Part shown: positions 37,275-40,142 of the stretch, piece after piece
Layout: every line of letters begins with the position of its first letter
How positions within the stretch are numbered: the first letter of the stretch is position 1
Origin: Vulcanisaeta moutnovskia 768-28
GTDB taxonomy: Archaea; Thermoproteota; Thermoprotei; Thermoproteales; Thermocladiaceae
NCBI RefSeq assembly: GCF_000190315.1
Contig: NC_015151.1
Coordinates: 372,001-436,000 of the forward strand
Direction: 5' to 3'
DNA: 64,000 bases
Translations under genes and position numbers: made by a program
The notes under the pieces: model-generated
Seen by the model: the letters and a program-made list of their open reading frames with translations, nothing else
The model's database searches: none
Told to the model about the DNA's origin: nothing

Positions 37275-37568
37275 ATGCCTCGCAAGCAAACCGTTAGAAT
37301 AGTGGAGAGGAAAAAGGAAATACTAGAATTATTAATTAAGGAGGGTGAGTTACCGACCAATGAAATTGTTAAGAAAACGAACTTAAGCCACAGCCAGGTC
37401 TTTTACGCATTAAAGCTTCTTCAGAGGGATGGATTAATTAGGGAAATTAAGAGAGGTAAGGTGGCCTACTGGAAGGCTTCAGATAATGCTCAGGAGGCGC
37501 TTAAGGCACTTGAGCAGGAGGTTAAGGAGGAGGTCATGGAGGGTGAGGAGACGACGGGGGAGACTTAG
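37275..37568 (+). CDS. Winged-helix DNA-binding protein
   Basis: This 97-aa protein has one clear winged helix: KKEILELLIKEGELPTNEIVKKTNLSHSQVFYALKLLQRDGLI, then a wing with RGKVAYW, and an acidic tail (EQEVKEEVMEGEE). It is of the size of small archaeal MarR/ArsR-type or SSV-like regulators. The ATG lies about 26 nt after TCTTTAAAAATA, so the mRNA is leaderless. Target genes are unknown; HMG-CoA synthase upstream is one candidate. Confidence 0.75.
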   Translation: MPRKQTVRIVERKKEILELLIKEGELPTNEIVKKTNLSHSQVFYALKLLQRDGLIREIKRGKVAYWKASDNAQEALKALEQEVKEEVMEGEETTGET

Positions 37569-37601
37569 GCTTTTTAATTCAAGAATTAATGTAGTATCTG
37601 A

Positions 37602-37651
37602 ATGATGAGGCGGGCAGAATCCGTAAAAATGACGAGACTGTCTCACACTGA
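37602..37651 (+). ncRNA. Probable C/D-box sRNA (2'-O-methylation guide)
   Basis: In the 114-171 nt gap between the winged-helix gene and ribK a 50-nt unit has box C ATGATGA (37602-37608), a C'-like ATGACGA (37629-37635) and box D CTGA (37648-37651). The spacer before box D is exactly 12 nt (37636-37647), and so is the first guide segment (37609-37620), but the D' box is degenerate (CCGT). A CTTTTTAATTC element at 37570-37580 lies 25 nt before position 37600. The D guide is complementary to a conserved 23S rRNA stretch (see findings). Confidence 0.62.
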
Positions 37652-37739
37652 CTAAAATACTAACATTATTAATCGTCCATGATTGTTCACTAAAAGAGGA
37701 AGCGTTAATAAATGGGTAATTTACGCCAATGCGGAGTCT

Positions 37740-40040: not shown

Positions 40041-40142
40041 GCGGGGGTGCCCGAGCCTGGTCAAAGGGGGCGGACTCAAGATTATAAGTGAGATATCCGC
40101 TGGCGAAGGCCTGCGTGGGTTCGAATCCCACCCCCCGCACCA
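40041..40142 (+). tRNA. tRNA-Leu (CAA) with a 14-nt intron
   Basis: The sequence folds with acceptor GCGGGGG/CCCCCGC, D-stem CCC/GGG, anticodon stem GCGGA/TCCGC, loop CTCAAGA (anticodon CAA at 40077-40079), a long variable arm typical of Leu and Ser tRNAs, and T-arm GTGGG-TTCGAAT-CCCAC. The discriminator A and the CCA end are encoded (40139-40142). An intron interrupts the loop after position 37. Confidence 0.95.
40081..40094 (+). other. tRNA-Leu intron with bulge-helix-bulge splice sites
   Basis: Removing ATTATAAGTGAGAT restores the anticodon loop. CTCA (40075-40078) pairs with TGAG (40089-40092) as the 4-bp central helix, flanked by 3-nt bulges AGA (40079-40081) and ATA (40093-40095). Cutting after the second base of each bulge gives exactly this 14-nt intron between positions 37 and 38. 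Confidence 0.88.

Follow-up and report, generated by a model that had tools for sequence, protein, structure and literature searches.

A candidate double-guide C/D box sRNA gene in Vulcanisaeta moutnovskia with predicted 23S rRNA targets at the equivalents of U2552 and A2598

Introduction

Vulcanisaeta moutnovskia is a hyperthermophilic crenarchaeon with a complete genome of 2,298,983 bases, of which bases 372001-436000 form the window analysed here, a stretch of 64,000 nucleotides. In the gap between a winged-helix gene and a riboflavin kinase gene, a 50-base segment of this window had been read in an earlier note as a candidate C/D box sRNA with one guide against 23S rRNA. Does this segment encode such an RNA, and which nucleotides of the organism's own rRNA would its guides address?

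Results

Architecture of the locus

Window positions 37602-37651 (50 bases) carry the complete layout of a C/D box sRNA, C-guide-D'-loop-C'-guide-D, and read in order ATGATGA-GGCGGGCAGAAT-CCGT-AAAA-ATGACGA-GACTGTCTCACA-CTGA. As is typical of archaeal C/D box sRNAs, box C lies near the 5' end and box D near the 3' end, and internal C' and D' boxes are present together with guides in the range of about 10-13 nt. The boxes C, C' and D and the two 12-nt guides in a 50-nt unit that the earlier note had described were confirmed in both coordinates and spacing. Box D', which it had not named, is degenerate and constitutes the only weak element of the layout, with CCGT in place of the CTGA found at the same register in several homologues (L012, L015, L017). 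The mature RNA is expected to measure about 50-60 nt. The features are listed below, with identities in the genus given relative to the window.

37275..37568, plus strand: upstream winged-helix protein gene (HTH_24), conserved neighbour
37569..37581, plus strand: TATA-like stretch GCTTTTTAATTC, about 25 nt upstream of the sRNA; 71% identity
37592..37597, plus strand: 5' arm TAGTAT of a predicted 6-bp outer stem with ATACTA (37657-37662); fold prediction, not claimed
37602..37651, plus strand: predicted double-guide C/D box sRNA gene; supported by architecture and by conservation with synteny in the genus and in one further genus of the family
37602..37608, plus strand: box C ATGATGA, exact RUGAUGA consensus; 89% identity
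37609..37620, plus strand: D' guide GGCGGGCAGAAT, 12 nt, the first 9 nt pairing with 23S CUGCCCGCC, N+5 at E. coli U2552; 86% identity
37621..37624, plus strand: box D' CCGT, degenerate; 78% identity
37625..37628, plus strand: AAAA, 4-nt loop between D' and C', from sequence
37629..37635, plus strand: box C' ATGACGA, from sequence; 87% identity
37636..37647, plus strand: D guide GACTGTCTCACA, 12 nt, 9 nt pairing with 23S GUGAGACAG, N+5 at E. coli A2598; 96% identity
37648..37651, plus strand: box D CTGA; 100% identity
37737..38444, plus strand: gene for an archaeal CTP-dependent riboflavin kinase (PF01982), conserved neighbour on the downstream side; start approximate

The outer stem showed no evident conservation, and the overall fold was no better than that of shuffled sequences (z -0.65), which is expected because the RNA is defined by its boxes. 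A minus-strand open reading frame at 37479-37646 was set aside, given that conservation tracks the boxes and guides of the RNA.

The TATA-like element that the earlier note had placed 25 nt before the RNA start is present from 37569 and stands out in the genus by its identity of 71% against 35% in the spacer that follows, a pattern which favours the sRNA having a promoter of its own. A separate conserved TATA-like element, at about 37701-37717, belongs to the riboflavin kinase gene.

Both guides match the organism's own 23S rRNA

The 16S and 23S rRNA genes were located in the same genome and scanned with both guides for matches obeying the N+5 rule, and equivalent E. coli positions were checked by numbering on the real E. 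coli 23S rRNA. The D guide forms nine contiguous Watson-Crick pairs with GTGAGACAG / GUGAGACAG, and its N+5 base is A2737 of the organism's own 23S rRNA, which aligns with E. coli A2598 in the peptidyl-transferase region, the base to which the earlier note had pointed. That note had claimed a ten-base match to conserved 23S rRNA; nine of the bases hold, and the tenth does not, being G in this organism where U had been claimed. The note had also stated that the lack of any rRNA match of 9-10 bp or more in this organism would refute the reading; that test was run and passed at 9 bp.

The D' guide, for which the earlier note gave no such target, forms nine consecutive Watson-Crick pairs with CUGCCCGCC in the helix 92 A-loop, which places N+5 at U2691 of the own 23S rRNA, that is, E. 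coli U2552. This uridine is a classic target of methylation in bacteria, archaea and eukaryotes. The three bases of this guide nearest to D' (AAT) are unpaired with the target. Each guide thus combines 9 bp of rRNA complementarity with a Watson-Crick pair at N+5, the D' target lying 46 nt upstream of the D target. No further N+5 match of at least 8 bp was found for either guide in the own 16S and 23S rRNAs.

We estimated how often such matches arise by chance in about ten million shuffles of the guides. A 9-bp N+5 match was obtained in 6.0% of the trials for the first guide and in 4.2% for the second, and both guides had such matches at most 100 nt apart in 1306 of 10,443,484 shuffled pairs (0.0125%).

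Conservation, synteny and covariation with the target

In a search of 61 related genomes, the ends of the matches coincided with the boxes (query 13-62, corresponding to 37602-37651). Within the genus, boxes and guides are 78-100% identical to the window, and the flanking spacers 35% before the sRNA and 31% after it. The string made of the D guide and box D, CTGTCTCACNCTGA, was present exactly once in each of 11 of the 12 genomes of the genus, the remaining one (G005, an assembly 87% complete) being without the D-guide motif; the reversed control of the string matched in 2 of 81 genomes of the class. The order HMG-CoA-synthase-like gene, winged-helix gene, sRNA and riboflavin kinase gene is kept in those 11 genomes and recurs in two genomes (L011, L013) from another genus of the family.

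The D' guide also covaries with its target. In G011, the A-loop stem has CTGCCCGTC in place of CTGCCCGCC and the D' guide has GACGGGCAG in place of GGCGGGCAG, so that nine pairs are kept. Nine pairs are likewise formed between 23S CTGCTCGCC and the D' guide GGCGAGCAG in two more distant members of the class (G065 and G079), whose sRNAs are other C/D-like RNAs that have only the U2552 guide type in common with ours. Three genomes are exceptions: the D' guide has two mismatches to its own 23S rRNA in G010, ends in a wobble and a mismatch in G049, and has two mismatches to the only 23S rRNA found in G066, whose contig may be mixed. A pattern of GATGANGCGGGCAG with one mismatch was too loose and was replaced by a stricter, D'-boxed pattern. 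The pattern TGATGAN(0-6)GRGCAGNNNCTGA occurred at 15 places in 14 of the 81 genomes, compared with one in the reversed control. In the 23S rRNA gene of G008 (L108), extra G's are found in two G runs beside the targets and probably reflect a sequencing or assembly error.

These data bear on whether both guides are used. The degenerate CCGT box makes activity of the D' guide less certain than that of the D guide, and a genuine C/D box sRNA with a single methylating guide, the other pairing with rRNA as an aid to placing or folding, would also account for the three unpaired bases next to D'; PMC4644070 describes sRNAs of which one guide is defective or empty. However, homologues whose D' box is a perfect CTGA keep the register GCAGNNN before D', which, like the covariation with 23S rRNA, argues for a used site, and in the organisms covered by PMC7994747 the A-loop carries a modification at U2552, at G2553 or at both. 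We regard a single active guide as unlikely, and consider the locus very probably, on its sequence features, a double-guide archaeal C/D box sRNA that would direct methylation of the U2552 and A2598 equivalents.

Guide modules with changing partners and other C/D box genes

The A2598 D guide was also present in two other families, where it is paired with different D' guides. With the Vulcanisaeta 23S rRNA as a stand-in, the D' guide of one family (L034) had 12 matches at about E. coli 2514 and that of the other (L036) had ten at about E. coli 2543. Conversely, the U2552 guide was found with other D guides (L110, L112, L114). These partner changes are consistent with the mixing of guide modules between archaeal sRNAs described in PMC4644070.

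The recurrence of the D guide in L034 and L036 with other D' guides against the same 23S region is also informative on two other readings of the locus, as a string between genes that resembles a C/D RNA by accident or as a conserved element regulating the adjacent genes. The gap does lie between two conserved genes and has conserved promoter-like elements on both sides, but conservation inside it is confined to boxes and guides, and neither origin would fit well with guides that match two closely spaced rRNA sites in exact N+5 register and covary with their target. We consider this explanation almost negligible in comparison with a C/D box sRNA.

The layout was further sought throughout the 2.30-Mb genome with the pattern TGATGA-N(16-26)-TGANGA-N(9-13)-CTGA, using the pattern read backwards as control. 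It matched at 37 places, two of which overlap, versus 0 for the control, so that the layout can be taken as the mark of a genuine class of genes here. Besides the sRNA described above, the genome has at least 35 distinct genes resembling C/D box sRNAs, many with predicted N+5 targets in 16S or 23S rRNA. One C/D-like RNA, at G000:C1:438161-438208, 2.2 kb past the right end of the window, has a predicted guide to 23S rRNA, and another predicted 23S guide is found in the C/D-like RNA at G000:C1:589563-589609. Their guides are predicted to address neighbouring 23S bases, the U2593 and C2590 equivalents, which, with the sRNA described here, makes at least three guides covering this 23S region. The window also contains, at 40041-40139, an Rfam tRNA match (44.9 bits, 99 nt, probably intron-bearing) not reported by ARAGORN.

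Partner proteins and stand-alone methyltransferases

Adjacent genes for fibrillarin and Nop5, the two partner proteins covered here, are encoded at 1305465-1307030 of the genome. No clear RrmJ-type methyltransferase was detected, a PF01728 search of the genome giving only three matches of 24-31 bits, barely at or above the cut-off; inspected by eye, the three proteins look like an NSUN-like m5C enzyme, a generic methyltransferase and a METTL5-like enzyme. The sRNA would accordingly be the best candidate for Um2552 in this genome, since no clear enzyme of that type was found. Methylation of U2552 by a stand-alone RrmJ/FtsJ-type enzyme, with the D' guide match as a relic or accessory, has its precedent in the bacterial RrmJ-type enzymes (PMC12123411) and could appeal to the three PF01728 regions. 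Nevertheless, the best of them scores just 31 bits, all three look like other methyltransferases, and the guide covaries with its target, all of which makes an enzyme-only route highly improbable next to guidance by the sRNA.

Comparison with known guide RNAs

Rfam was searched at gathering and at relaxed thresholds, and none of its archaeal sRNA families reached threshold at the locus. The families sR17 (RF01144) and sR2 (RF01139) gave weak end-to-end matches of the general C/D layout, and at 11.3 and 10.8 bits, compared with gathering scores of 36 and 42, membership in either was rejected.

With the archaeal C/D box sRNAs treated in PMC4644070 and PMC7994747, the locus shares the box layout, the 12-nt guides, the N+5 rule and two nearby sites in domain V of 23S rRNA; neither paper mentions, in its main text, a U2552 guide paired with an A2598 guide. 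According to PMC4644070, U2552 is predicted to be guided in 5 of the 7 archaea studied by RNA-seq, and helices 90-93 of 23S rRNA are a guide hotspot; in PMC7994747, the rRNA-targeting sRNAs of Pyrobaculum are mostly dual guides with sites within 100 nt. A close likeness is Nanoarchaeum equitans sR10 (PMC4644070), whose D' guide is directed to U2826 of the alignment used in PMC4644070, which equals U2552 by the offset given in that paper for E. coli C2606. The D guide of sR10 differs in addressing the C2606 equivalent just downstream, 8 nt beyond the A2598 targeted here. Yeast snR52 (PMC12123411) is similar as a guide RNA that works with the fibrillarin homologue Nop1 and is aimed at the U2552 equivalent; it is, however, a eukaryotic snoRNA, and the Vulcanisaeta sRNA differs from it by a second guide with its own 23S target, A2598.

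Among the open papers found, none describes this sRNA, and only a tRNA-modification review joins Vulcanisaeta with C/D box sRNAs. The same guide pair may already be described in other genera, for example Pyrobaculum or Thermoproteus, in supplementary target tables or in the Pyrobaculum sRNA families of Lui et al. 2018.

Discussion

The C/D box sRNA identity proposed in the earlier note was supported by every available sequence test, and the element is an ordinary double-guide archaeal sRNA that does not depart from the known class. In the mechanism that we propose, the sRNA would be transcribed from its own promoter or trimmed out of a longer transcript, its C/D and C'/D' boxes would fold into a k-turn and a k-loop bound by L7Ae, and Nop5 and fibrillarin would assemble on it. 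The D' guide would then pair with the A-loop (helix 92) and lead to 2'-O-methylation of the U2552 equivalent, and the D guide would pair with the peptidyl-transferase region 46 nt downstream and lead to methylation at the A2598 equivalent. Simultaneous contact with the two sites may also aid the folding of the region.

Introns, recognised because the 129-nt target region matched in separate pieces, were observed in the 23S rRNA genes of relatives at or next to both targets (L126 in G025, L127 in G018, L128 in G021 and L125 in G066). The interruption falls between U2552 and G2553 in two of them (G025 and G018) and at about 2601/2602 in another (G021), so that guide pairing there would take place only after splicing; in the 23S rRNA gene of the window's own genome, no intron was found between the U2552 and A2598 sites. 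A further role, in which the sRNA clamps the A-loop at U2552 together with the peptidyl-transferase region at A2598 and so serves as a folding and splicing checkpoint for the catalytic centre, is conceivable, and we give it rather little weight.

Um2552 is among the most widespread rRNA methylations, and the sRNA gives Vulcanisaeta a likely route to it in a genome without a clear stand-alone enzyme. It also offers a clean evolutionary example, in which the A2598 guide stays and its partner varies from one family to another, every time within about 85 nt of the same 23S region. Finally, it adds a well-supported member, outside any Rfam family, to the archaeal methylation-guide RNAs.
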